Assembly: GCF_001049755.1 (NCBI RefSeq) | Contig: NZ_CVLB01000001.1 | Location: 806,001 to 870,000, forward strand | Direction of reading: 5' to 3' | Source: Brachyspira suanatina | GTDB lineage: Bacteria > Spirochaetota > Brachyspiria > Brachyspirales > Brachyspiraceae | Length of the DNA stretch: 64,000 nt | Shown here: in pieces, positions 1,441-49,744 of the stretch | Layout: each line of letters opens with the position of its first letter | Position numbering within the stretch: the first letter of the stretch is position 1 | Notes under the pieces: model-generated | Database searches by the model: none | Seen by the model: only the letters and a program-made list of their open reading frames with translations | Told to the model about the DNA's origin: nothing | Position numbers and translations under genes: made by a program

Positions 1441-2023
1441 GGGTAGGGATAGTTAAAAAGATTTTGAAATTTATTTTCGTTCCCCGCCCATTATCCTTTA
1501 TTAGTTTCATTTGCAATTTTAATTTTTCTTTCTTATTTGCTTAAAAATAATTTAAAAGCACCCGCCCTAGTTTTAATTAGATTTAAAATTTTTATACCGC
1601 ACGGTAAACATATTTTTTAATATAATAAAAATTGTATTATTAATCGACTTATATTCCTATTTTTAATTTAACGTGCGTTGTATGCATTCTAAATTTAAAA
1701 AAATCTTGGGTGGGCAGCTAAAATAACAGTAGAAGTAAAAAAGAAAAATAATACAAAAATGAGAGAGAAATATTGAAAGCCTAAAGGGCGGGCATATGTA
1801 ATTAGATTTTAAAACTTTTATTACAATCCCACCCATTATTCTTTATTAACTTCATTTTTAATTTTAATTTATTCTTTCTTATTTGCTTAAACAGAATTTA
1901 AAAGCCCCACCCTAATGTCATTTAAATTTTTAGCGAATAAACCGCACGTTAAATAAAAAAGTAGTTAACAATACAAATTGTATTATTAACTACTTTAAGT
2001 TTAAAATCTATTTACCGTGCGTT
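1441..2023. repeat. Modular palindromic intergenic repeat, locus 1 (two G-box hairpins and two ACCGCACG modules)
   Basis: The block is built from recurring parts. G-rich/C-rich pairs form hairpins (GGGTAGGG at 1441 with CCCCGCCC at 1482; GGGCGGG at 1786 with CCCACCC at 1828). Further G/C boxes sit about 70 bases away (1561, 1705, 1905). Modules bounded by ACCGCACG and CGTGCGTT span about 80 bases (1596-1679 and 1941-2023). The same parts occur with nearly the same spacing at 5603-6030, 17441-17640 and 49501-49744. It fills the gap between the thioesterase and DUF4132 genes, and no coding potential is visible. Confidence 0.8.
1951..1993 (-). terminator. Terminator hairpin downstream of the DUF4132 gene
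   Basis: GTAGTTAA (1961-1968) and TTAACTAC (1986-1993) are the outer arms of a long near-perfect palindrome. On the minus strand it is followed by a T-rich run. It lies about 40 bases after the DUF4132 stop and inside the second ACCGCACG module, so the repeat appears to supply the terminator. Confidence 0.75.
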
Positions 2024-2034
2024 ATGATAAAATA

Positions 2035-5000
2035 TTAATCTCCAAAAACACTTTTTACTATGCTATAAATTGAAGAAGCAAATCTCTTATTAACTTTTAA
2101 AGGATTAATCAAAGTTTCAATGCCGTCAGTAATTTCACAGAACTCAATATCACCAAAATTAATATCTTCATTAGCATCCATTCCAAAGTACATATAGTCG
2201 AATGAGAGATGAACTGCTATGTTGAGATAAGTATCTTTTAATATGTACTCGCAGAAAGTTCCTCCGTCCATAGCTTCGCCTCTAGCCATATCGTACTTAG
2301 TAGCTAATGACATTAATACACCAGCCTTTATTGTTTTAGAATCAAGAGAATGAATCTTATCTTCTTTTATGTCTTCTTCTTTAATCTCTTCATATTTGAA
2401 ATTAAGCTGTTCTATAGGCTGTGATATCTCATAATCTGATAATTGAGTTTTCCATTTCTCTATAGTGTCAGCATCTAATTCTGAAGGGTGAACTAAAGTT
2501 ATTAAACTGTTCTCAGGTAAAGTGTACTCTTCTTCATCAACTGTATTGAAAGTACCGTCTTCCATGTATCTGAAACTCTGTATTAAATTGTTGTTCTCAT
2601 CATAAGCACCCCAAATAAGCTTCAAAGCAAATATGTTCATTATTGGGTTCTCAACAAATACTGTTTTGAAATTATTGTAAGTCCATTTTCTGCCATTTAA
2701 TAAAACTTTTTGAAGTCTTATTTTCTGATTCTGTATCAAAGTTTTTATTTCTTTCTTGAGTGTAGTACATTCTTTCTTAGCACTGTCTGCTTCTGCTTTG
2801 TCGTCTTTGCTGTTTGGTGCAGGAAGTGATTTTATTACTTTTTGTTTTTCATTATCTGTTATAGTGAGTTCAAGATTATTGTCTATTGATAATGTGAATG
2901 TTCTTCTTGCTTCTCCTCCGTAATTTAGAACTCTTTCACCTTTTTGACTAAATCCAAAATTAGGTATTATTCTGTCTGAAAGTTCATCAGCTGTCATATC
3001 AAGCATATAAGCAGCATTCTCCATAGTTTCTATTGCCACTTCTTTTATTTTTGCTGTAGGTGATTTTCTTGTTAGACCGTCTACTAATATTAATGCATAG
3101 TTCTTTCCGTTTAATGCCATACATTTTACAATAAATGCTGCCATAACAGTACGTGAACCTTTAGCAAATTCTTTTATAAGAGGATAAACTTTATCTATTT
3201 TCAAATCATCAGAATATATTAAATAAGGTATTAAAATATTCTTTTTTGTTGCTTCATAATTAGAATCTTTCCAATGGATATATAACATTTCCAAAGCATT
3301 AGTAAATGAAGTAGTATCAAGCATTTCAGCAAGCATATCGCAGTCTTTTAATCTTGCAGGCTCTACTAAATTCATATATTCCATAATAATATATTTAAAT
3401 ATTCTCTCATCAGCCAATGTTCCATTATTGTATAAAACTTTTGTCAAATGAACATCATCTAGGAACTTTATATTTTTTTCATAGTTTGTATTGTAGTAAG
3501 TGTCAATAAACTCCAAAGCCTCGTCGATACTTTTGAAATAGTCGCCGTATTTTTTTAAGTTCCAATTCTTAATAATATTTTTTAATGCTCCTTTAAGTTC
3601 TGATGATCTTGCTTTCTCTGACATCTTTTCGACATAAGGTCTTGTAATAGCTTCATTATCAGAAATAACTTTAATACAATGCCTTTTTACTTCGGCTCTC
3701 TTTGTATTTTCAAGAATCGTATAAACTAAATGATAATCATTATAATGACATTTATTATACAATGTTCTTAATATATCTAAGGCTGTATTTTTATTGCTTG
3801 CTATATTATCTTTTATAAACTTATCATCATTTAATATATTTACCACTTCATCAAAATAGCTTTTTAATAATTCATCTTTTACGCTATTTATAATAACATT
3901 ATTATTTTCATCTACGCATCTAAGTTCTTTATATAATGTAGGAAGAGATTTTCCTCCATAGTCATAATAATAATTTGAAAGATCTCCTGCATAATCAAAA
4001 TAGTATGATAATAAAATTTCTTTTAATGTAATATTCAATTCTTTATTATTTAATAAACTATCAATAACTTCTTTTAAAGTTTTACTTCCTATAGATGCCT
4101 GCACTTCTATATATTTTCTTATTCCAAGCTGAATTGGTAAATATTTAAAAATATCAAGAGCAAACTTTTTATAGTTTTTTATTTCAGGGATATCATAATT
4201 AAATAAAGAGAATAAATAATAAAGTTCTGTACTAAGACAATATTCAGGGAGAGTATTTCCCCATCTGTATGTGCTGTATAGATTGTATGTATTTTTTTTG
4301 TCTGTATAATAATCTATAAGCGTATCAAATAGTTTATTTTTATCTTTATCAAATATTTCTTCTATTTTTTCTGTAGTAGTAAAAGTAGGTCTTGGATTAT
4401 ATCTATTAGAGTTATCTTTTGTAAATTTATTAACTATAGTTTCTAATACAGTTATAGATTTTTTTAAATTATTTGTATCTAAATTATTATCATTATGTTC
4501 TAGTAAAACACCGCTAAGAACTATAAATATTCTTTTATTTCTATCATTATTTCTATTATTATTATACCTATCACTATTTAAACTATTTTCTACAAAATTA
4601 TAAATTTTATAAAAATCTTCTTTATGATTCAAATATAAATCTCTTGCACCATAAATGAAGGCATAATGAAAATAGTCCTCAAAATGCTGTGCTATAAATG
4701 CAAAATCATTTGGATAATTTATTGCATTAAAGAATTTCTCTCTAGCTTTATAAGGATTGTTATAATCTAATGATCTTAAATGGTATCCAAGTATAATATT
4801 AATGTCAATGATATATTCTTCATTTTTATTAAGCACTTCTATAAATTTATTTTTTATAGCCTCATTTTTATCTAAGATAGCAGCAATTACATTTAAAGTG
4901 TCATAAAGATTAGGAAGAACATCGAATGATTTTATAGCTGCATTTATATATTTCTCATCACATTCTTTATTATTTTTTATAACAGAACATATTGCAATCA

Positions 5001-5502
5001 ATGGTATTACAGCATCTCTATCCATTTTTTTTAATATTTTTTTATTATCATTGTTATTAATAATATCAATATATTTATCTGTGTATTCTTGAAACTCTTT
5101 ACTGAAGTATTTATTAAAATCTTCAAAAACTGTATATATTAAAGTTTCACCATTTAAAGTTCTTGCCTGTTCTTTATATCTTTTCTCATATCCATAAACA
5201 AGATATCTGAGTGACTTTTCAAAATCTCTATTGACTATATAATCAAAAATAACATATCTAGTTCCGCCTTCTCCTTCCTTATCTTTTCCATAAATAAGTA
5301 TCTTCATGAAATGTTCATATCTTTTTTTTAATTTTTCATCTTCTATAGAAAAGTAATCTTTCAAAAATTCCTCTTTATAATGGAAATAATCATAAGAATT
5401 CCTTCTTATTTTACTGAAATCATTTGTAGCTTCACATTTTGCCATATCATCTTCTATAGCAGAGCCTTGATAATATATTGCAAGTTTTTCTTCTAAGTTC
5501 AT
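2035..5502 (-). CDS. DUF4132 domain-containing protein (giant cytosolic protein)
   Basis: The 1,155-residue product is a long, mostly alpha-helical protein without signal peptide or membrane helices. The C-terminal third carries the DUF4132 signature: a basic helix with LLNGRKW, then a segment ending FALKLIWGAYD, then strands with YTLP and LVHPSEL. DUF4132 proteins, some described as MolR-like, have no established biochemical function. The start is set at the second Met (MNLEEKL), because AGAGGTG lies six bases before it and overlaps the codons after the upstream ATG at 5518-5520. The gene is alone between two blocks of modular repeats, which is suggestive of an accessory gene. Base composition is like that of its neighbours. 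Confidence 0.8.
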   Translation of the reverse strand: MNLEEKLAIYYQGSAIEDDMAKCEATNDFSKIRRNSYDYFHYKEEFLKDYFSIEDEKLKKRYEHFMKILIYGKDKEGEGGTRYVIFDYIVNRDFEKSLRYLVYGYEKRYKEQARTLNGETLIYTVFEDFNKYFSKEFQEYTDKYIDIINNNDNKKILKKMDRDAVIPLIAICSVIKNNKECDEKYINAAIKSFDVLPNLYDTLNVIAAILDKNEAIKNKFIEVLNKNEEYIIDINIILGYHLRSLDYNNPYKAREKFFNAINYPNDFAFIAQHFEDYFHYAFIYGARDLYLNHKEDFYKIYNFVENSLNSDRYNNNRNNDRNKRIFIVLSGVLLEHNDNNLDTNNLKKSITVLETIVNKFTKDNSNRYNPRPTFTTTEKIEEIFDKDKNKLFDTLIDYYTDKKNTYNLYSTYRWGNTLPEYCLSTELYYLFSLFNYDIPEIKNYKKFALDIFKYLPIQLGIRKYIEVQASIGSKTLKEVIDSLLNNKELNITLKEILLSYYFDYAGDLSNYYYDYGGKSLPTLYKELRCVDENNNVIINSVKDELLKSYFDEVVNILNDDKFIKDNIASNKNTALDILRTLYNKCHYNDYHLVYTILENTKRAEVKRHCIKVISDNEAITRPYVEKMSEKARSSELKGALKNIIKNWNLKKYGDYFKSIDEALEFIDTYYNTNYEKNIKFLDDVHLTKVLYNNGTLADERIFKYIIMEYMNLVEPARLKDCDMLAEMLDTTSFTNALEMLYIHWKDSNYEATKKNILIPYLIYSDDLKIDKVYPLIKEFAKGSRTVMAAFIVKCMALNGKNYALILVDGLTRKSPTAKIKEVAIETMENAAYMLDMTADELSDRIIPNFGFSQKGERVLNYGGEARRTFTLSIDNNLELTITDNEKQKVIKSLPAPNSKDDKAEADSAKKECTTLKKEIKTLIQNQKIRLQKVLLNGRKWTYNNFKTVFVENPIMNIFALKLIWGAYDENNNLIQSFRYMEDGTFNTVDEEEYTLPENSLITLVHPSELDADTIEKWKTQLSDYEISQPIEQLNFKYEEIKEEDIKEDKIHSLDSKTIKAGVLMSLATKYDMARGEAMDGGTFCEYILKDTYLNIAVHLSFDYMYFGMDANEDINFGDIEFCEITDGIETLINPLKVNKRFASSIYSIVKSVFGD

Positions 5503-5602
5503 AAATTCACCTCTTATCATTTTTTAATCTATATTAATGTATAGTATATATATTTTTTTATTTATTGTCAACTTCTTTAAGTTCTATTTACCTAACATAA
5601 CC

Positions 5603-6030
5603 CCCATCGCACGCAGTATAAATCATAAATATAATTATATTATTATACAATTTATATCATAAATTGATAATGCATTTACTGTGCGTTAAATAGATTTTAA
5701 ATTTAAAAATAACTTGGGCGGGTGCCTTAATTTCTAATAAAGTATCAAAACAATTTAAATTATAATTACAGAACAAAGCAACAAAGAATTAAGGGCGGGG
5801 AATGTAAATAATACTTTAAAGTTTAATTACATCTGCCCACCCTCTTGCTTTATTATTACATTTTACATTTTAGACTTTACTTCTTTACTGCCTCAATTAA
5901 AAAAGCATGCCCACCCAAAATGTTTTTAAAGTTATTAGTTTATTTACCGCACGAAAAAATAAAACAAGAAATAAAGAATAATAAAAAATCAAATATTAAT
6001 TATAAAATAGAATTGACTAACCGTGCGTAA
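5603..6030. repeat. Modular palindromic intergenic repeat, locus 2
   Basis: The order is CGCACG (5608), GTGCGTT (5681), CTTGGGCGGG (5713), GGGCGGGG (5793) paired with CCCACCC (5836), CCCACCC (5910), ACCGCACG (5946) and CCGTGCGT (6021). It is therefore two ~75-bp ACCGCACG modules placed symmetrically about a ~50-bp G-box hairpin. The spacings of about 70, 28 and 70 bases match locus 1. It fills the gap upstream of the DUF4132 gene. A 61-codon frame crossing it looks accidental. Confidence 0.8.
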
Positions 6031-6104: not shown

Positions 6105-6215
6105 TTATTCTTCTACATTTTCTATTATGTCGTTATATTCGTTGATTAATAAATTATATTCTTCATCATCTAATAAAATACAATCATTATTCAAACTGTT
6201 TAATAATCTGCTCAT
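6105..6215 (-). CDS. Small acidic protein of 36 residues (paralogue 1), unknown function
   Basis: The start codon at 6213-6215 is preceded by AAGGAG at ideal spacing, and the frame ends at 6105. The protein has about eleven acidic residues, one Cys, and a central LLDDEEYNLLINEY segment that looks amphipathic. There is no signal peptide or membrane helix, so it does not look like a classic hydrophobic type I toxin. The second small gene (6441-6554) encodes a clear relative, sharing L-N-x-L-N, a Cys at position 14, DDE/NDE-x-Y-x-LLI-x-EY and a final EE. Own promoter, leader hairpin and terminator make it a self-contained unit. I do not recognise the family. Conservation between the pair is the main argument that it is translated. 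Confidence 0.75.
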   Translation of the reverse strand: MSRLLNSLNNDCILLDDEEYNLLINEYNDIIENVEE

Positions 6216-6440: not shown

Positions 6441-6554
6441 TCATTCTTCTATATATTTCCTCATTATTTCATAATATTCGCTTATTAATAGCCTATAATC
6501 TTCATCATTTAAAAAGTTACATTCTTTATTTAATATGTTGAATAATTTAGTCAT
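6441..6554 (-). CDS. Small acidic protein of 37 residues (paralogue 2), unknown function
   Basis: The ATG at 6552-6554 follows a full AAAGGAGGT Shine-Dalgarno site, one of the strongest in the window. The product resembles the 36-residue neighbour in length, in the Cys at position 14 and in the NDEDYRLLISEYYEI core, but it has more basic residues near the C-terminus. No signal peptide, membrane helix or known motif is seen. It has its own promoter and leader hairpin upstream and its own terminator downstream. Partial protein similarity combined with conserved layout points to an older tandem duplication under selection. The function is unknown, and peptide, regulator or RNA-plus-peptide roles all remain possible. 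Confidence 0.77.
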   Translation of the reverse strand: MTKLFNILNKECNFLNDEDYRLLISEYYEIMRKYIEE

Positions 6555-16931: not shown

Positions 16932-17038
16932 TTATTTACCAATATTTATTTATGATTAATAAATAATATATTCATAATAAAAAAATAACAATATGATTTA
17001 ATTATTTTAATTTTATAAATGTTTAGATTATAATAAAA

Positions 17039-17376
17039 AGCGGAGCTATAAGCCGTATTCTGTCATTTAAGGTAAACATTTATCTGCGCATTATATCACT
17101 ACAATGCTTTAGCGAGCCACCTGAAACATAGGAAAAGGGCAATCCGTTTCTGTTTGCTCTTGCCTCTCATGGGGTTTACACTGCCATTCATGTCGCCATA
17201 AATGCGGTATGCTCTTACCATGCCTTTTCACCCTTACCAAATTGGCGGTATATTTTCTGCTGCACTTTCCATAGGCTTTCGCCTTCAAGCCGTTAGCTTG
17301 CATGAAGCCCTTTAGAGGTACGGACTTTCCTCAGTATTAGTTAATTAAATACCGCGTTTACCCACTCCGCATAGTC
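17039..17376 (-). ncRNA. rnpB: RNase P RNA
   Basis: Read on the minus strand the segment has the universal RNase P RNA landmarks. GAGGAAAGTCCG lies near the 5' end (about 17322-17334), followed by GGGCTTCATGC and the AAGGCGAAAGCC stem. The 3' part has GACAGAATACGGCTTATAG (about 17047-17066). The ends ATGCGGAG and CTCCGC can pair as helix P1. The length of about 338 nt fits bacterial type A RNase P RNA, which cleaves the 5' leader from pre-tRNA. It is much more GC-rich than its surroundings. A 64-codon frame inside it is accidental. Confidence 0.96.
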
Positions 17377-17440: not shown

Positions 17441-17640
17441 ACCGCACGGTAAATAAAATAACAAATATAAATTAAGTTATAATCTGCATATTATTAATAT
17501 TAAAAATACTTTCTTAATCGTGCGTTTAGTTAATTATAAATCTAATCAAAACTTGGGCGGGCATGCTTTTTTTATTTGAAGCATTAAGGAAATAAAGATT
17601 AAAATTTAAAATGAAATAATAGAGATATAGAGCGGGGTGT
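17441..17640. repeat. Modular palindromic intergenic repeat, locus 3 (truncated)
   Basis: ACCGCACG (17441-17448) and CGTGCGTT (17519-17526) bound one module. CTTGGGCGGGC follows 25 bases later (17552) and GAGCGGGG 70 bases after that (17630). The right hairpin arm is missing, and the sequence runs straight into the promoter of the next gene. This fills the 326-base gap between rnpB and the nuclease gene. Confidence 0.75.
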
Positions 17641-41111: not shown

Positions 41112-41139
41112 TTGACAATAATATTTTATTTTATATAAT
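41112..41139 (+). promoter_or_regulatory. Promoter of chemoreceptor gene 1
   Basis: TTGACA (41112-41117) and TATAAT (41134-41139) are 16 bases apart. The -10 overlaps an in-frame ATG at 41138, which therefore cannot be the translated start. Confidence 0.78.
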
Positions 41140-41176
41140 GTATATCAATTTTTTAATATATTTTAGGAGTCTTGAT

Positions 41177-43012
41177 ATGCTTAAGACAGAGAAAAGAATC
41201 AGAAGAAGCAGGATTATATTAAAATTTGTCATTCCATACTTCATATTTTTTGTATTAATTTGTGTTCCTGTATATATAACTTATTATAATCAGTATAGAG
41301 AAAATTTTTTGTATAGTATATATGATATTATGGATAATGCTTCATTAGATATATCAGGTTGGATATTAGAATACAAAATTCAATTAAAGACTGTAAGTAG
41401 TTTTTTTGAAACAGATATGACAATAAATGATATGATGTCGGCTGTTTATAAAATGAAATCATTAGATAGTGAATTGGTGGATGTTTATTTTGGAGGAGAT
41501 ATTCCTTATGCTAATGGCAGATTTTTTGTAACTGCCATTCCTGATACTATACCAAGTGATTATGATCAAACTACTAGAGATTGGTATGTTAATTCTATAA
41601 ATACAAATGATGTTTATGTTAGTGAACCATATACAGATGCTTCAACTTCTTCTTCTGTTATTACTTTAGCAATTGCTGTTAAAAATTCATCAGTTGTTAA
41701 AGGAGTTGCTGCATTGGATGTGTATTTCTCTAAAATAGAAGAAATAATGAATAAAATAAAAAATGATAAAGGTTATGAGTTTTTTGTAATATTATCTGAC
41801 GGTAGATACCTTAATCATAGCAATAAAGATTATTTGCTTAATGATAGATATTCTGCTTTTAATATGCCGGAATTTTCAGATGTTAAAAATAACATGATAA
41901 ATGGAAGTGCAGTATCTATATATAAAGATCAATGGTATGGTATTAAAGAAATAAAAGGTTTTCCTTGGTACATAGTAGCTAAAGGAAATGACAAAGAGTT
42001 AAAAAATAATATATATAAATTAACTTTTTACTTATTTTTAGTTATTATTTTATCTATAGGATTGGAAGTTGTTTTAGTAACTGTTATTACTATACCTATT
42101 ACAGATACTTTAAATGAAGCTATTCATCATATAGATAATATGGCTTTAGGTAATTTTGATACTAAAGAGAATGATTCTAAAAAACATAATAATATAGCTC
42201 ATGCTTTATCATCTTCTATATATGATATGCAGAAAAATATTAGTTCAGTGATTTATAATTTAAAATTGGATATAGATTCTATTAATAGTGAAATGGAGAA
42301 AATATCTTTAGGAAATAATGATTTATCTGATAAAACTATTGATCAGGCATCTTCAATTAATGAATTAGCAAGTGCTATACAATTTCTTTCATCTTCTATA
42401 GCTGATACTTATAATAATACAAATAATGCTAAAGAAGTAAGTAAAAAAGCATTGGAATGCAGTATTAGAGGAGTGGAAATCGTTTCTAAAACTTCATCAA
42501 ATATGGAAGAAATATCGGATGCAAGCAAGCAAATTTCAGAAATCATTAAAATGATACAATCAATAGCATTTCAAACCAATATTTTAGCACTTAATGCAGC
42601 AGTTGAAGCAGCTAGAGCTGGAGAACAGGGTAAAGGTTTTGCTGTTGTAGCTAGTGAAGTAAGAAATCTTGCTCAAACTTCTTCTAAAGCAGCAGATGAT
42701 ATAACATCTATAGTTGAAAGTACAATTCAAAAAATAAATTTAGGATATGAAACTGTTGCTGAATCTTCATCATTATTAAATGAAATAAATAATTTAGTAA
42801 CTGATGTTTCCAATGCGTTGGTAAATATATCAAATGCAGCAGAAGAAGAAAAGGATAACATAGAGCAGATTAATGTAAGTGTTTCTTCTATTAGTAATAT
42901 AACACAAAGAAATAGCTCGCTTGCAAATGATAGTGCTTTATCAAGTAAAGAAATATTAAATAAAACAGGAAATATAGCAAATAATATATCATACTTTAGA
43001 TTTAAAAATTAA
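41177..43012 (+). CDS. Methyl-accepting chemotaxis protein 1
   Basis: The 611-residue receptor has a cytoplasmic N-terminus, a membrane helix (about residues 15-38), a periplasmic Cache-like sensor ([33 protein letters not shown]), a second membrane helix near residue 285, and a signalling domain with the conserved tip [25 protein letters not shown]. The start at 41177 has AGGAG seven bases before it; an in-frame ATG 39 bases earlier lies within the promoter. It is the most divergent of the four receptors here. A HAMP-like stretch follows the second helix. Ligand unknown, although the sensor class often binds amino acids. Confidence 0.92.
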
Positions 43013-43105
43013 TTATTATATTTCTTATTTTATAAAAATAACTTTTATTTCATAGCTACTATGGTATTTTATATTTTATAATATATAATAGTAATATTGT
43101 ATAAT

Positions 43106-43134
43106 TTGACAATATTGATAATTTTTACTATATT
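43106..43134 (+). promoter_or_regulatory. Promoter of chemoreceptor gene 2
   Basis: TTGACA (43106-43111) and TATATT (43129-43134) are 17 bases apart, about 47 bases before the start codon. Confidence 0.65.
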
Positions 43135-43180
43135 ATAGAATATATCACATTGTAATCTATACTATAAATAATTATTAACT

Positions 43181-45019
43181 ATGAAAAAATTAAATAGTTT
43201 AGCGTTTAAAATGCCTTTGTCCATTAGTTGTATAAGTAGCATAATAATAATTGTACTCTTAGTAATTTCGTTGTTTTTTTCAAGTAAAGGTATTACAGAA
43301 TCAATAAATGTTGGATTTAGAAATACAGTAGAAGGATATGCTTACTTATTGGATGCTTTAACAGAAGCACAAATGTTGCTTGCAAACTCTTATGCAAGTG
43401 ATGCTAATATTAGAAACTATATGATTTTTAGAGATGATGTTTATAGTGTATACAGTGGAAGAGATATGACTAATTTTATAGAAAAAAATAGCTATGTAGA
43501 AAGTCTTTATTTAACAGATATAAATGGAAATGTTTTACTTACTACATCAGAAGCTTTAAGAAATAGAAATATGGCTGATATAAGACCTGATTTATGGAGA
43601 AAACTTTCAACAGGAGAAAAAGTTGCATTTGGAAGTCCTAGAGAATCCCCAGTTTCAGGAGAAATAACATTGGGTGTTGGATCTATAGTTACAGATTTCA
43701 CAAATAATACAATAGGTTATTTAGTTAGTACCATTAAAGGTTCAGTTATACATGATAATTATTTTTCAAAAGTTAGATTAGGAAGAACGGGAAGAATAGT
43801 TGCTGTTAATGAGAATTTTATAGTTACTATGGATATGGATCCTGCTAATATCAATAAACCAGCACCTGAAGCATATAAAAATATATTTAATAATGCTTCA
43901 GATGAAGGTCCTTATAGTTATAAAAATGGTAATATATTGAGAATAGGATACTATAAGAAAATGGATGTTCAGCCTTGGATAGTAACTTATGCTATGAATG
44001 AAGATGAAATATTTGAACAGATAAGAACTACTGTGTTTGTAAGTATTTTAGTTGCTGTTCTTTCTATAATTGCTTTAGTTATATTTATGTTTATGTATGC
44101 TAGAAGGATTACAAAACCTCTTCGTATAGTTGTTGAAGAAGCAAAAGAAATAGAAGAAGGCAGACTAATTATGCATGGAAGAAAAATTAATAGAAATGAT
44201 GAAATTGGAGAATTATCTCGCTCTTTCCATAATATGAAATATAAGCTTATAGATATAATAGAAACTTCTTTGAATGAGTCTAGTAGAATGGCACAAGCTG
44301 CTAATAGTCTTGCAACTGGAAATAAAGATTTAGCAGAAAAAGCAGAAAGTACTGCAGGCAATCTTGAAGAAACAGGATCATTTATGGAAGAGATAGCTGC
44401 TGCAATCACCGTATCTATCAATAATTCCGTAAAAGGAAATGAAATGATGAATGATTGTAAAATAGCCATAGAAAATGCTGCATCAGTAGTTGAAGAAACT
44501 GTAAAAAGTATAAGCGAAGTTAATGCCGACAGTGAAAAAATAAAAAATATCATTAAAGTTATAGAAGGAATAGCATTCCAAACTAATATATTGGCACTTA
44601 ATGCCGCAGTAGAGGCAGCTCGTGCAGGAGATCAAGGTAAAGGTTTTGCTGTAGTTGCTAGTGAAGTAAGAAGCTTAGCACAAAGCAGCCAAGATTCAGC
44701 TAAGGATATAACAGAGTTAATTAATCAGGTATATGAAAAAATTAACAGAGCAAATCAGATAGTAGGAAGTCAGGAACAATTATTTGTAGGAATAAAAGAA
44801 CAAATAGAAGAAACAGCTGACACTATAAAGAGTATCACTGAAGCAGCAGTTGAACAAAAAGAAGGAGTAGCTCAAGTTAATAGGGCTGTTGAAGAAATGG
44901 ATACTTTAACTCAGGAAAATGCAGCTTTGGTTGAAGAGTCTACAGCATCTTCTATGTCATTATATGATGATGCCAGACATTTGAAAGAAGTTATTAATTT
45001 CTTTAGTATAGAAAAATAA
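43181..45019 (+). CDS. Methyl-accepting chemotaxis protein 2
   Basis: The 612-residue protein has an N-terminal membrane helix, a periplasmic Cache-type sensor (about residues 35-280, with [22 protein letters not shown]), a second helix (about residues 285-307), a HAMP segment ([20 protein letters not shown]), and an MA signalling domain with [23 protein letters not shown]. It belongs to the same subfamily as the two receptors that follow, sharing [14 protein letters not shown]. No strong ribosome-binding site precedes the ATG. It ends before two terminator-like hairpins. Confidence 0.92.
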
Positions 45020-45028
45020 AAATTGTTA

Positions 45029-45076
45029 GTGTATAGTAAATTTACTGAATATATACAAAGTTATTTACTATACATT
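45029..45076 (+). terminator. Terminator hairpin after chemoreceptor gene 2
   Basis: GTATAGTAAAT and ATTTACTATAC form an 11-bp perfect stem with a long loop (arms near 45031-45041 and 45063-45073), followed by T-rich sequence. Confidence 0.65.
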
Positions 45077-45130
45077 TTAAGTAAACAATTTTTATAATAA
45101 TTTAATTCTAAATATAAATTTGATTATTAA

Positions 45131-45172
45131 AATCTCTGGCACATTTTTATATTAGTTGCTAGAGATTTTTTA
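45131..45172 (+). terminator. Second hairpin with T run after chemoreceptor gene 2
   Basis: AATCTCTGGCA (45131-45141) pairs with TGCTAGAGATT (45157-45167) apart from one mismatch, and TTTT follows. No gene lies between it and the previous hairpin, so it may be a back-up terminator or a short RNA end. The rest of the 527-base gap to the next receptor is AT-rich, with only a promoter seen. Confidence 0.6.
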
Positions 45173-45444
45173 TCTATAAGATCTAATAAAATTATACCAC
45201 AATTTATTTAGTAGATTATTATGATTTTTAAATTAATAATAAAAGAATTTTTTTAATGCTTTAACGCTAAATATAAAAATTATTATTATATTACAAATTA
45301 TTTCATATAAAGTAATAATTTTGATTAGAAGTAATAAAAAATCAGTACAAAGTTTTTTATAGTATTTTGAATATGTGCTTTAATTTAATGCTTTAAAAAT
45401 GTATAACAGCATAAATAATAAAAAATCAAAAATATTTTATTGTA

Positions 45445-45471
45445 TTGACAACTATTTTTTTTTAATATACT
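45445..45471 (+). promoter_or_regulatory. Promoter of chemoreceptor gene 3 with a T9 tract in the spacer
   Basis: TTGACA (45445-45450) and TATACT (45466-45471) are 15 bases apart, and nine consecutive T (45455-45463) lie between them. The paralogous promoter at 47487-47515 has a 17-base spacer without such a run. Confidence 0.6.
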
Positions 45472-45546
45472 ACATATATAGGAGTTTGTTGATTTTTATC
45501 AATCTATGTCTTATATAAAATTTTATAATAATGTTAGGAGTAAATT

Positions 45547-47388
45547 ATGAGTAGGTTTTATAGTCTATCTTTTAAACTGCCAATTACTATTAGTTTAATG
45601 TCTATAATAATGTTAGGTTTTTTATTAAGTGCTTCTGTCTTTTTTTCAAATAAGGGAATAACACAAAGTACTGATACAGGTTTTAAGAATACTGTAGAAG
45701 GATATGCCAATCTATTTGATTCTATATTAGATGCTCAAGTAATGGTAAATAAAGCTTATACGAGCAGTGCTAATATTAAGAATTTTCTTACAGATATGAG
45801 TAATTCCTATAGAAATAATGTTAATCTTGATATAACTTCATATATAGAAAACAATAATTTCATTGAAAATATTTCAATAATGAATACTAATGGTGTAATA
45901 GTTTTTGATAAAAATGAAAAATTGATAGGAAGAAATTTTATGGATTTGAGACCGGATATGATGCGAAAATTGTTAGCCGGAGAAGACTTAGCTTTTGGAA
46001 ATGAAATTAAAGAATCAGCAGCTACAGGTGAACTTACAATATCTTTAGGTGTAAGAGTACTTGATTATAATAATCAATTGATAGGATATTTAGTTTCTAT
46101 TATAAAAATAATGGTTATATATGATAATTATTTTAGTAATATACAATTAGGAAGAACTGGAAGAATAGTAGCCGTTAATGATCAGCTTAAAGTTGTAATG
46201 GATACAGATCCAAAAGAAATAAATAAACAAGCACCAAATGAATATGATAATATAATAAAGAGCGGATCAGTATCTGGAAATATTAGTTATGTTGCTAATA
46301 ATCATATTAGAGCAGGTTTTTATAAAAAGATGACAGTTCAGCCTTGGATAGTAGCTTATGCCATGGATGAAGAAGAAATTTATGAGATTAATAAATCTAT
46401 AGTTATAACAAGTGTTATTATAGGTATAATATCTATGCTTCTTATGACATTTGTAGTGTTCTTATTTACTAGAAGTATAATAAAACCTTTAAACATTGTA
46501 GTTTCAGAGGCTAAAGAAATAGCATCTGGAAGACTTATTATGCATAATAGAAAATTAAATAGAAAAGATGAACTTGGAGAATTATCTCATTCTTTCCATG
46601 ATATGAAATATAAACTTATAGAAGTGATAGAAACAACTTTACATAATGCAGATAAGATGTCGCTTGCAGCAAATAATTTAGCAGCGGGTAATAAAGATTT
46701 ATCAAGAAGATCAGAGAATACAGCAGCTAATCTTGAAGAAACAGCGTCATCTATGGAAGAAATATCTTCAGCAATATCTATGGCTACAAATAATTCTGTT
46801 AAAGGCAATGAAATGATGAATCATTGTAGAGAGTCTATAGATAATGCTACATCAGTTGTATCAGAAACAGTTAGAAGTATGAATGAAGTTAATGCTGATA
46901 GTGAAAAGATCAAAGATATCATTAAAGTTATAGAAGGTATAGCATTCCAAACTAATATATTAGCTTTGAATGCGGCAGTAGAAGCAGCAAGAGCAGGCGA
47001 TCAAGGTAAAGGTTTCGCGGTAGTAGCTTCAGAGGTAAGAAGTTTGGCACAGAGCAGTCAGGATTCAGCTAAAGATATAACAGAATTAGTAAATCAAGTA
47101 TATGAAAAAATCAATAAAGCTAATAAGATAGTAGAAAGTCAGGAAGAGCTATTTATGAATATAAAAACTGAAATAGATGAAACAGCTAATATTATTAAAG
47201 ATATTAGTTCAGCAGCATTAGAACAGCAGTCAGGAGTAGCTCAGGTAAATAAAGCTGTAATGGAAATGGATTCTATAACACAAGAAAATGCTGCATTAGT
47301 GGAACAGTCTACAGCTTCATCACTAGCTTTATATGATGATGCTAAAGAACTACAATCTGTAATGAGTTTCTTTAAAATAGAAAAATAA
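45547..47388 (+). CDS. Methyl-accepting chemotaxis protein 3
   Basis: The 613-residue protein has the same architecture as receptor 2: helix, Cache-type sensor (LRPDMMRKLLAGEDLAFGNE), helix near residues 283-306, HAMP and MA domain. The first ~55 residues and the last ~265 residues are almost identical to receptor 4, while the sensor region between differs considerably. Such mosaic identity is typical of duplication with sensor diversification or gene conversion of the ends. AGGAG precedes the ATG. A 17-bp hairpin terminator follows. Confidence 0.93.
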   Translation: MSRFYSLSFKLPITISLMSIIMLGFLLSASVFFSNKGITQSTDTGFKNTVEGYANLFDSILDAQVMVNKAYTSSANIKNFLTDMSNSYRNNVNLDITSYIENNNFIENISIMNTNGVIVFDKNEKLIGRNFMDLRPDMMRKLLAGEDLAFGNEIKESAATGELTISLGVRVLDYNNQLIGYLVSIIKIMVIYDNYFSNIQLGRTGRIVAVNDQLKVVMDTDPKEINKQAPNEYDNIIKSGSVSGNISYVANNHIRAGFYKKMTVQPWIVAYAMDEEEIYEINKSIVITSVIIGIISMLLMTFVVFLFTRSIIKPLNIVVSEAKEIASGRLIMHNRKLNRKDELGELSHSFHDMKYKLIEVIETTLHNADKMSLAANNLAAGNKDLSRRSENTAANLEETASSMEEISSAISMATNNSVKGNEMMNHCRESIDNATSVVSETVRSMNEVNADSEKIKDIIKVIEGIAFQTNILALNAAVEAARAGDQGKGFAVVASEVRSLAQSSQDSAKDITELVNQVYEKINKANKIVESQEELFMNIKTEIDETANIIKDISSAALEQQSGVAQVNKAVMEMDSITQENAALVEQSTASSLALYDDAKELQSVMSFFKIEK

Positions 47389-47395
47389 TTAAAAA

Positions 47396-47456
47396 AATAT
47401 TATTATATAGAGTAACTTTATATTGAGTTTTCTCTATATAATAATATTAATATTTC
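47396..47456 (+). terminator. Terminator of chemoreceptor gene 3
   Basis: AATATTATTATATAGAG (47396-47412) pairs perfectly with CTCTATATAATAATATT (47432-47448), giving a 17-bp stem followed by T-rich sequence. Confidence 0.8.
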
Positions 47457-47486
47457 TTTTTTATGTATGCATCAAGTGTTATTTAA

Positions 47487-47515
47487 TTGACAAGGCTAAT
47501 AGTTTTTACTATACT
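47487..47515 (+). promoter_or_regulatory. Promoter of chemoreceptor gene 4
   Basis: TTGACA (47487-47492) and TATACT (47510-47515) have the optimal 17-base spacing. Confidence 0.75.
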
Positions 47516-47592
47516 ATTTATTATCAGAAATTCTATCATTATTTTCGTATTTATCTAAAATAAATATCTAAAATATCCAAGGAGTTTGCATA

Positions 47593-49434
47593 ATGAGTAG
47601 ATTTAGTAGTTTATCTTTTAAAATGCCTATTACTATTAGTTTAATGTCTATATTAATGTTAACTTTTTTATTAAGTGCTTCTGTATTTTTTTCAAATAAA
47701 GGAATAACAGAAAGTACAGATACTGGGTTTAAAAATACTGTAGAAGGGTATGCTAATCTATTTAATTCTATATTAAATGCTCAGGTTATGGTTTCAGTAG
47801 CTTATTCCAGCAGTGCTAATATTAGAAACTATCTTCTAATCAGAGATGAAAATTATAGAAGATTAGGTTTGATTGATTTAAATTTATTCATAAAAAGAAA
47901 TGAATACTTAGAAAATATTTACGTTGTAGGTGTAGATGGTAGTATATTATTGGATAAAAAAAATGAATTGACTGGTCAGAGTATGGCAGAATTTAGACCT
48001 GGTATGTGGAATAAATTAAAGGCTGGTGAGGAATATTCTATTGGAAATAATATGAGAAAATCAGCAGATACAGGTGAGTATACTGTATCTATAGGTACTC
48101 AAATATTGGACTTTGAAAATAATATTATAGGTTATTTGGTATTGATAGTTAGATCGTCTATTATACATAAAAATTATTTTAGTAATATAAAGTTGGGAAG
48201 AAGTGGAAGAATAGTAGCAGTTAATGATCAGCTTAAAGTTGTAATGGATACTGATATAAATGAGGTGGCTAAAGATGCACCTAATGAATATGATAGCATA
48301 TTTAAGTCTGGAAGTTTAGAAGGAAATGTGGAATATAGTTTCAACAATCATAAAAGATTGGGGTATTATAAAAAAATGAAAATTCATCCTTGGATAGTAG
48401 CTTATGCTATGGATGAAGAAGAAATTTATGAGATAAACAAATCTATACTTGTAACTAGTATTATTATAGGTATAATATCTATGCTTCTTATGACATTTGT
48501 AGTGTTCTTATTTACTAGAAGTATAATAAAACCTTTAAACATAATTGTTGAAGAGGCTAAAGAAATAGAAGATGGAAAACTTGTAATTAATAGAAAACCT
48601 TTAAATAGAAAAGATGAGTTAGGAATATTATCAAGATCTTTTACTTCTATGCGTACAAGACTTATAGAAGTAATAGAAACAACTTTACATAATGCAGATA
48701 AGATGTCGCTTGCAGCAAATAATTTAGCAGCGGGCAATAAAGATTTATCAAGAAGATCAGAGAATACAGCAGCTAATCTTGAAGAAACAGCGTCATCTAT
48801 GGAAGAAATATCTTCAGCAATATCTATGGCTACAAATAATTCTGTTAAAGGTAATGAAATGATGAATCATTGTAGAGAGTCTATAGATAATGCTACATCT
48901 GTAGTATCAGAGACAGTTAGAAGTATGAACGAAGTTAATGCTGATAGTGAGAAGATTAAAGATATAATTAAAGTTATAGAAGGTATAGCATTTCAAACTA
49001 ATATATTAGCACTTAATGCAGCAGTAGAAGCAGCAAGGGCAGGTGATCAAGGTAAAGGTTTTGCAGTAGTAGCAAGCGAGGTAAGAAGTTTGGCACAGAG
49101 TAGTCAGGATTCAGCTAAAGATATAACAGAATTAGTAAATCAAGTATATGAAAAGATTAATAAAGCTAATAAGATAGTAGAAAGTCAGGAAGAGCTATTT
49201 ATGAATATAAAAACTGAAATAGATGAAACAGCTAATATTATTAAAGATATTAGTTCAGCAGCATTAGAACAGCAGTCAGGAGTAGCTCAAGTAAATAAAG
49301 CAGTAACAGAAATGGATTCTATAACACAAGAAAATGCTGCATTAGTGGAACAGTCTACAGCTTCATCACTAGCTTTATATGATGATGCTAAAGAACTTCA
49401 GTCTGTTATGAGTTTCTTTAGAATAGAAAGATAA
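47593..49434 (+). CDS. Methyl-accepting chemotaxis protein 4
   Basis: The 613-residue protein is the closest relative of receptor 3. The signalling domain from the HNADKMSLAANNLAAG segment to the C-terminus differs at only a few residues (for example KAVME to KAVTE and FKIEK to FRIER), while the sensor (residues about 60-270) and part of the HAMP region are distinct. It carries the same N-terminal SLSFKMPITISLMSI segment. GGAG precedes the start. It closes a run of four receptors on the plus strand. The ligand is unknown. Confidence 0.93.
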   Translation: MSRFSSLSFKMPITISLMSILMLTFLLSASVFFSNKGITESTDTGFKNTVEGYANLFNSILNAQVMVSVAYSSSANIRNYLLIRDENYRRLGLIDLNLFIKRNEYLENIYVVGVDGSILLDKKNELTGQSMAEFRPGMWNKLKAGEEYSIGNNMRKSADTGEYTVSIGTQILDFENNIIGYLVLIVRSSIIHKNYFSNIKLGRSGRIVAVNDQLKVVMDTDINEVAKDAPNEYDSIFKSGSLEGNVEYSFNNHKRLGYYKKMKIHPWIVAYAMDEEEIYEINKSILVTSIIIGIISMLLMTFVVFLFTRSIIKPLNIIVEEAKEIEDGKLVINRKPLNRKDELGILSRSFTSMRTRLIEVIETTLHNADKMSLAANNLAAGNKDLSRRSENTAANLEETASSMEEISSAISMATNNSVKGNEMMNHCRESIDNATSVVSETVRSMNEVNADSEKIKDIIKVIEGIAFQTNILALNAAVEAARAGDQGKGFAVVASEVRSLAQSSQDSAKDITELVNQVYEKINKANKIVESQEELFMNIKTEIDETANIIKDISSAALEQQSGVAQVNKAVTEMDSITQENAALVEQSTASSLALYDDAKELQSVMSFFRIER

Positions 49435-49500
49435 ATATTATTATTTTACTTTAAGTTAAAAAATTATTTAAAAATTGAAGTGATATTATAAAATTAAAGT

Positions 49501-49744
49501 GTGGGTAGACGTAATTAAATTTTTAAATTTTAATTACAACTCCCACCCTTTAAGATTTTTTTATTTAATTATAAAATTATAATTTATATTTATATTTTTA
49601 CTAAATAAGTAAGTAAAGTGCCCGCCCAAGTGTTATTTAAATTTTTAGTTTTTATTAACGCACATTTAATTAAATTTTATATATAGTTAAATTTAAAATG
49701 CATCATTAAGGTATAATTATAGCTTTGCGTGCGTAATATTTTTA
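49501..49744. repeat. Modular palindromic intergenic repeat, locus 4
   Basis: GTGGGTAG (49501) forms a ~48-bp hairpin with CTCCCACCC (49540). CCCGCCC follows about 72 bases later (49621), and a module bounded by AACGCACA (49657) and GCGTGCGT (49737) follows after a further 29 bases. Order and spacing match half of locus 1. With the hydrogenase promoter it fills the 458-base gap before the maturation genes; the first hairpin may terminate receptor 4. Confidence 0.78.

Follow-up and report, generated by a model that had tools for sequence, protein, structure and literature searches.

Locus 1 occupies positions 1441-2023 of the window, i.e. the whole 64-kb stretch of DNA which was analyzed, and lies next to a 1161-aa ORF containing a DUF4132 domain (2035-5520, minus strand). 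It is one of four loci of a repeat family in this window, beside genes which are all ordinary and code for a thioesterase, a DUF4132 protein, a glycosyltransferase, a PD-(D/E)XK-like protein and a chemoreceptor. A preliminary description had recognized four loci with boxes at recurring distances, and the box positions established here agree with its marks within a few bases; the gaps of about 70, 28 and 68 bases which it gave are start-to-start distances minus the box lengths. Measured from start to start, the distances between successive boxes are 42, 78, 36, 75, 36, 78, 42, 78, 36 and 74 in locus 1 (1441-2023), 73, 36, 77, 43, 74, 37 and 75 in locus 2 (5607-6029), 77, 36 and 75 in locus 3 (17442-17637) and 43, 79, 37 and 70 in locus 4 (49499-49735). 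Two boxes of the window are degenerate, the G box at 1441 and the outer G box at 17630-17636. In what follows, C and G denote CCCRCCC and GGGYGGG, > and < the two ends of module D, and H the head-to-head junction of two arms.

1441-1489: locus 1, H junction, two arms head to head, from the degenerate G box 1441-1447 to the C box 1483-1489
1483-1567, plus strand: locus 1, arm with CCCGCCC as both C boxes, the outer at 1483-1489, the inner at 1561-1567
1597-1678, plus strand: locus 1, first D module, ACCGCACG...CGTGCGTT
1708-1792, minus strand: locus 1, opposite-strand arm, inner G box 1708-1714 and outer G box 1786-1792
1786-1834: locus 1, second H junction, GGGCGGG...CCCACCC
1828-1912, plus strand: locus 1, arm, outer C box 1828-1834 and inner C box 1906-1912
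1942-2022, plus strand: locus 1, second D module, oriented as the first, ending 12 bp from the stop of the 1161-aa ORF (DUF4132)
5607-5686, plus strand: locus 2, first D module
5716-5799, minus strand: locus 2, arm, G boxes 5716-5722 and 5793-5799
5793-5842: locus 2, H junction
5836-5916, plus strand: locus 2, arm, C boxes 5836-5842 and 5910-5916
5947-6028, plus strand: locus 2, second D module
17442-17525, plus strand: locus 3, D module, with the RNase P RNA gene on one side and a PD-(D/E)XK-like ORF on the other
17555-17636, minus strand: locus 3, arm, inner G box 17555-17561 and degenerate outer G box 17630-17636
49499-49548: locus 4, H junction, GTGTGGG...CCCACCC
49542-49627, plus strand: locus 4, arm, C boxes 49542-49548 and 49621-49627
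49658-49734, plus strand: locus 4, D module, left box CGCACA with one mismatch

Other features of the window were recorded along with the repeat. The bacterial class A RNase P RNA gene (17033-17373, minus strand, 272 bits) has locus 3 just upstream. Four consecutive ORFs of one family, of about 612-624 aa, occupy 41138-49434, the last being a methyl-accepting chemotaxis protein (dCache and HAMP domains). Two similar tandem ORFs of 36-37 aa (6105-6215 and 6441-6554, minus strand) each have a hairpin with AAGCCTATGCATT next to them; the orthologous interval of genome G009 includes a related copy, and these ORFs may form a family of small peptides with a terminator of its own.

Architecture and distribution of the repeat

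The unit consists of an arm (two CCCRCCC boxes whose starts are 78 bp apart) followed, 36 bp from the inner C box, by module D (CGCACG...CGTGCG, 75 bp from one end box to the other). Two arms meeting at H are 42 bp apart from start to start, and units joined head to tail have a period of 345 bp. In the stretches extracted from the window's own genome, 77 chains reduce to few module strings (CC><GG 21, ><GG 12, ><GGCC>< 11, CC>< 9 and rarer ones), chains scoring below 8 being uncounted and solo D modules therefore invisible. The elements have two kinds of ends, a half of H or a D: homology fades about 20 bp beyond the outer box, at the axis of H, and about 7 bp beyond the end of D. Mirrored arms lie at the ends of CC><GG copies, and D ends the other copies on one or both sides. 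On the C strand, spacers are composed of 52% T and 31% A.

Two classes of arms were distinguished, one of which meets D as ACCGCACG and the other as AACGCACG. D has arms of opposite classes on its two sides in 17 of 23 cases, and the same holds for H in 11 of 14; the unit is therefore oriented and repeats head to tail. The element is thus no true palindrome, and the preliminary description, which had seen a palindromic repeat with hairpins, was right about the complementary boxes, which are real, but not about the symmetry, since the element is oriented and its mirrored halves pair less well than shuffled ones. It was borne out in regarding the repeat as a structured family whose modules are added or removed as units, as shown by the few strings into which the 77 chains fall and by orthologous loci which differ by whole units. 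A shorter arm-plus-D tandem was observed in G011 (L176, G011:C1:2493000-2497000, 1501-2627), with five units and a period of about 233 bp vs 345; it is possibly a local amplification.

The boxes are strongly over-represented in the window, with 4 CCGCACG vs 0.09 expected, 13 CCCRCCC vs 0.40 and 5 CGTGCGT vs 0.14, counts which were never reached in 100 shuffles. Genome-wide and genus-wide counts, as the preliminary description had proposed, showed that copies extend far beyond the window with their spacing conserved: CCCRCCC-N22-38-CGCACG has 57 forward and 59 reverse matches in the own genome (116 in total; reversed control 0 and 0) and is present in 23 of 26 Brachyspira genomes, with 28 to 187 matches in each positive genome, so that the copy number of the family across the genus ranges from dozens to hundreds. 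G001, G003 and G020 have no match to this pattern and likewise none to an independent arm pattern (0/3). The latter has 46 matches in G011 and 25 in G013, and equals its own reversal, which makes the reversed control uninformative. In other genera of the same order, the box pattern was found in none of five genomes. A stricter consensus pattern matched 10 stretches of genome_contigs, all from Brachyspira, own-genome records being possibly excluded from that collection. Among plasmids, no Brachyspira record matched, the one weak match being to Mycoplasmopsis over 17% of the query; phages gave no match, and viral_contigs none to the exact consensus pattern. Among the genera searched, the element is restricted to Brachyspira.

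Nearly all chains (76/77) are intergenic. Their neighboring genes are convergent in 31 cases, tandem in 32 and divergent in 14, and the gaps of at least 150 bp in the same stretches, element gaps included, number 34, 59 and 32. As a rough comparison, convergent gaps are therefore the most often occupied. With dnaA as a stand-in for the origin, and with loci separated by more than 3 kb, the ori-distal half of the chromosome holds 34 of 35 loci in G010, 51 of 57 in G004 (74 of 75 forward matches and no reverse matches being covered) and 15 of 28 in G011. For G009, the quarter nearest dnaA alone was used; it contains 17 of 160 matches and falls within the matches listed. Clustering in the ori-distal half, in three of the four chromosomes tested, is suggestive, not proven, and may mean merely that this half tolerates insertions. 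According to the available part of one genome paper, the origin may have moved in some Brachyspira species (PMC2897892).

Movement of whole units and the search for a mover

All four loci of the window differ between species. Locus 3 is empty in G006, G008 and G010, the whole insertion being about 230 bp, and filled in G000, G002, G004, G005, G009, G015, G021 and G023. At locus 2, G000 and G023 have the insertion and G004, G005, G006, G007 and G009 lack it; at locus 4, G009 has it and G007 does not. Locus 1 is shorter by one 345-bp unit in G009, and in close relatives, occupied sites differ by whole units. In G004, a 202-bp unit which begins with ATTCA-ACGCACG (ATTCA preceding D) and ends with the complete outer G box, GGGCGGG, is identical at two dispersed sites (about 0.80 and 2.54 Mb), the flanks of which are no more similar than chance. 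From the differences at all window loci together with this exact dispersed copy, it follows that the family moves. A second pair, L177 and L186 in G010, is identical at 352 of 353 positions. As a fresh insertion it was rejected, since its junction flanks lie apart in G008 and G016 (in G016, each near a copy); rearrangement or conversion is more likely.

Such observations are those expected from a non-autonomous, MITE-like mobile element moved in trans, whose boxes would be recognition ends, kept since only good-ended copies spread. The filled and empty sites at loci 2, 3 and 4, the exact unit between unrelated flanks in G004 and the number of pattern matches per positive genome all speak for it. 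However, no clean target-site duplication was found at the three loci inspected (8-9 bp or about 20 bp are possible at locus 3, none is evident at locus 4 or L150), the elements have two kinds of ends instead of one inverted-repeat pair, and no recurrent transposase was found near copies. When 382 ORFs around own-genome copies were clustered, chemoreceptors (9) and a DUF4132-type family of 1161 aa (6, the window ORF included) came out, with no recurrent transposase or mobility gene among them. The search for a gene associated with the element, which the preliminary description had advised, thus yielded no transposase around own-genome copies; its suggestion of a spread by an enzyme encoded elsewhere may hold, as the family does move, but no recurrent mobility gene was seen nearby and reverse transcriptases do not track the element.

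Two known types of movers were considered. Spread of a REP/BIME family by a RAYT (Y1 transposase) would fit intergenic, modular and alternating units with more than 100 pattern matches per genome, but PF01797 is absent from all 26 genus genomes (the control was positive in 5/14) and hairpin covariation is lacking; this origin was rejected and is barely credible. The REP/BIME label of the preliminary description consequently survives as an analogy only, given this absence and the unsupported function of hairpins. A retroelement, e.g. an ORF-less relative of group II introns inserted after terminators, is suggested by the flanks of some copies, which directly follow terminator-like sequences. 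Yet RVT_1 occurs in 7 of 26 genomes, excluding the window's own and including two of the three element-free genomes, and this distribution, which does not track the element, led us to reject an origin that we regard as very improbable. Terminator-like hairpins in flanks point into the element in only 21 of 154 cases and away from it in 14, vs 6.2 in shuffled sequences, a count by which terminator-targeted insertion is only weakly borne out; it was likewise rejected.

Next to the RNase P gene, another repeat (GCAGTTCTTTTGGTTCTTTTATACCAATAAAAGAACTGG) was observed inside the D module at L111 (G023) and alone in the same RNase P-side intergenic region at L112 (G017); it is absent from the window.

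Pairing of mirrored halves and conservation of boxes

A transcribed structured RNA or a bidirectional terminator, with stems made of G and C boxes, would account for the complementary boxes of two-armed elements, for the preference for convergent genes and for the inward terminator-like hairpins of the flanks (21/154 vs 6.2 shuffled). Moreover, the predicted RNA fold of locus 2 is better than that of shuffled sequences (z -3.17, 1/100 shuffles being equally good), its DNA fold having a z of -1.65. Against this, mirrored positions of D pair below shuffled expectation, at 0.524 vs 0.550 (z -4.8, n=121 distinct modules, unlike C/A ends) and, for A/A ends, at 0.559 vs 0.588 (z -3.4, n=97); mirrored positions of H give a z of -1.6, and allowing G-U pairs leaves the deficit of D unchanged on either strand. 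A hairpin conserved by compensatory change was hence not found, pairing being below shuffled expectation. The middle bases of the two boxes of H are mismatched in 88 of 110 cases, as T/G or C/A, and the inner boxes differ in 56 of 76 two-armed elements vs 40.7 expected. Partnerless single-arm copies are common (12 '><GG' and 9 'CC><' of 77), and Rfam, at the gathering threshold, matched RNase P alone in the window, with weak matches at chance level for locus 1 at a permissive threshold. Hairpins are not supported by these data, a function as hairpin or RNA was rejected on the pairing of mirrored positions, and the transcribed reading is decidedly improbable. Long perfect palindromes are unstable in bacteria, and their avoidance would account for both the sub-shuffled pairing and the mismatched boxes.

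Identity between copies is 50-56% in spacers and 93-98% in boxes (101 of the 116 own-genome pattern matches). Of the boxes which were unused for finding these 101 copies, the outer C is intact in 72% of the copies and the far end of D in 88%, with offset controls at 0. Opposite-arm boxes are intact in 38% and 34%, because many copies have a single arm. Among 285 units, thinned from 347, spacing deviates from the mode by at most 1 bp in 81%, 90% and 89%.

Conservation between copies could by itself reflect selection for movement, and orthologous copies, located via their flanks irrespective of the state of their boxes, were therefore compared. At 13 non-redundant orthologous loci, 17 of 384 box sites changed (4.4%) vs 130 of 476 G/C spacer sites (27.3%; Fisher p 8e-21). 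The free middle base of boxes changed in 9 of 41 cases, and G/C sites of the flanks, possibly with coding sequence included, in 50 of 432. A single locus, window locus 1 compared with G007, contributes 9 of the 17 box changes (9/60 box sites differ). A redundant set of 77 directed pairs gave 60/1992 for boxes vs 585/2364 for G/C spacer sites, and separate blastn alignments gave 2/102 changes for inner boxes, 5/144 for outer boxes and 12/138 for D. Loci with a length difference above 25 bases (77-pair set) or 60 bases (13-locus set), i.e. those with gains or losses of units, were omitted from these comparisons. Indels in orthologues are not rarer than in flanks (8.6 vs 10.4 per kb, p 0.49), and the constraint on spacing is therefore deduced from paralogues alone.

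Boxes at individual loci are thus kept by selection as the spacers drift. Such conservation in orthologous copies, which do not move, is not predicted by selection for transposition alone, and we consider a MITE-like element rather unlikely. The selection on boxes at individual loci makes a host-level role of the duplex DNA likelier than a purely selfish repeat.

A candidate docking element and its relation to known systems

The reading that we tentatively prefer, at somewhat short of an even chance, is that of a duplex-DNA docking element for a putative sequence-specific protein, BIME-like in its working. The short G/C boxes would be read as double-stranded DNA by such a protein, or by a protein pair, which would dock on several boxes simultaneously, so that box sequence and spacing would matter and the intervening DNA would not. 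Located between transcription units, mostly convergent or tandem, the element may act on local DNA folding or topology, by analogy with the gyrase- or IHF-binding BIMEs of enterobacteria. Copies would be gained, lost and multiplied as whole units via DNA recombination and some dispersal route. From a mobile, oriented and intergenic architecture whose boxes are selected at individual loci, we infer binding by a protein, on duplex DNA, and action there. Counting against docking are the 3 of 26 genus genomes without a copy, the loss of boxes at individual loci (locus 1 in G007, and locus 3, whose boxes are mutated in G021 and G005), an indel rate in orthologues not below that of the flanks and the RNA fold of locus 2 (z -3.17).

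A more far-reaching version, which we hold to be quite unlikely, is a chromosome-organizing system private to Brachyspira, in which a protein-held multi-box scaffold would mark the ori-distal half, fold the DNA between convergent genes and, by recombination, account for rearranged gene orders without apparent insertion sequences.

Extensive rearrangements between Brachyspira genomes have been reported, as far as the available part of the source goes (PMC2897892), and the available part of the WA1 paper states that insertion sequences were not found. The element is a candidate substrate for these rearrangements.

A transposase or RNA folding accounts for most dispersed repeats of bacteria, and here neither is in evidence. 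Selected boxes amid drifting spacers point, in this genus of gut pathogens, to a DNA-binding partner still to be discovered, and the elements are a ready bait for finding the binding protein.

In the literature, no paper was found whose title or the start of whose abstract describes such a Brachyspira repeat, a search with most subscription papers outside its scope and which leaves its unpublished status unproven; the available parts of four Brachyspira genome papers do not describe it (PMC3532143, PMC3163572, PMC2897892, PMC2650404). Several known systems share some of its features.

The BIME/REP elements with RAYT of Enterobacteriaceae and Pseudomonas are likewise intergenic and modular, with many copies, alternating inverted modules and local multiplication; some BIMEs of enterobacteria bind gyrase or IHF, and binding of Pol I is also a BIME feature. 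Among the features of these composite repeats, intergenic position (76/77), alternating module orientation and variable unit number recur in Brachyspira. In contrast, no RAYT gene occurs in the 26 genus genomes, units measure 200-345 bp instead of 20-40 bp, box spacing is fixed over tens of bp, and halves are mismatched rather than paired.

MITEs are also non-coding, dispersed and missing from some sites in relatives, but the Brachyspira element has two kinds of ends, no clear target duplication and no parent transposase found near its own-genome copies. The BOX elements of Streptococcus pneumoniae are similar as modular intergenic repeats with a variable number of internal modules and no internal transposase, whereas in Brachyspira an oriented 345-bp tandem unit is found, and spacers are nearly randomized while boxes and distances persist. 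Finally, the matS/MatP system of the Escherichia coli terminus resembles the Brachyspira element in its many ori-distal sites, a concentration found in three of the four genomes tested here and missing in G011; unlike the multi-box Brachyspira element, matS is one short palindrome.
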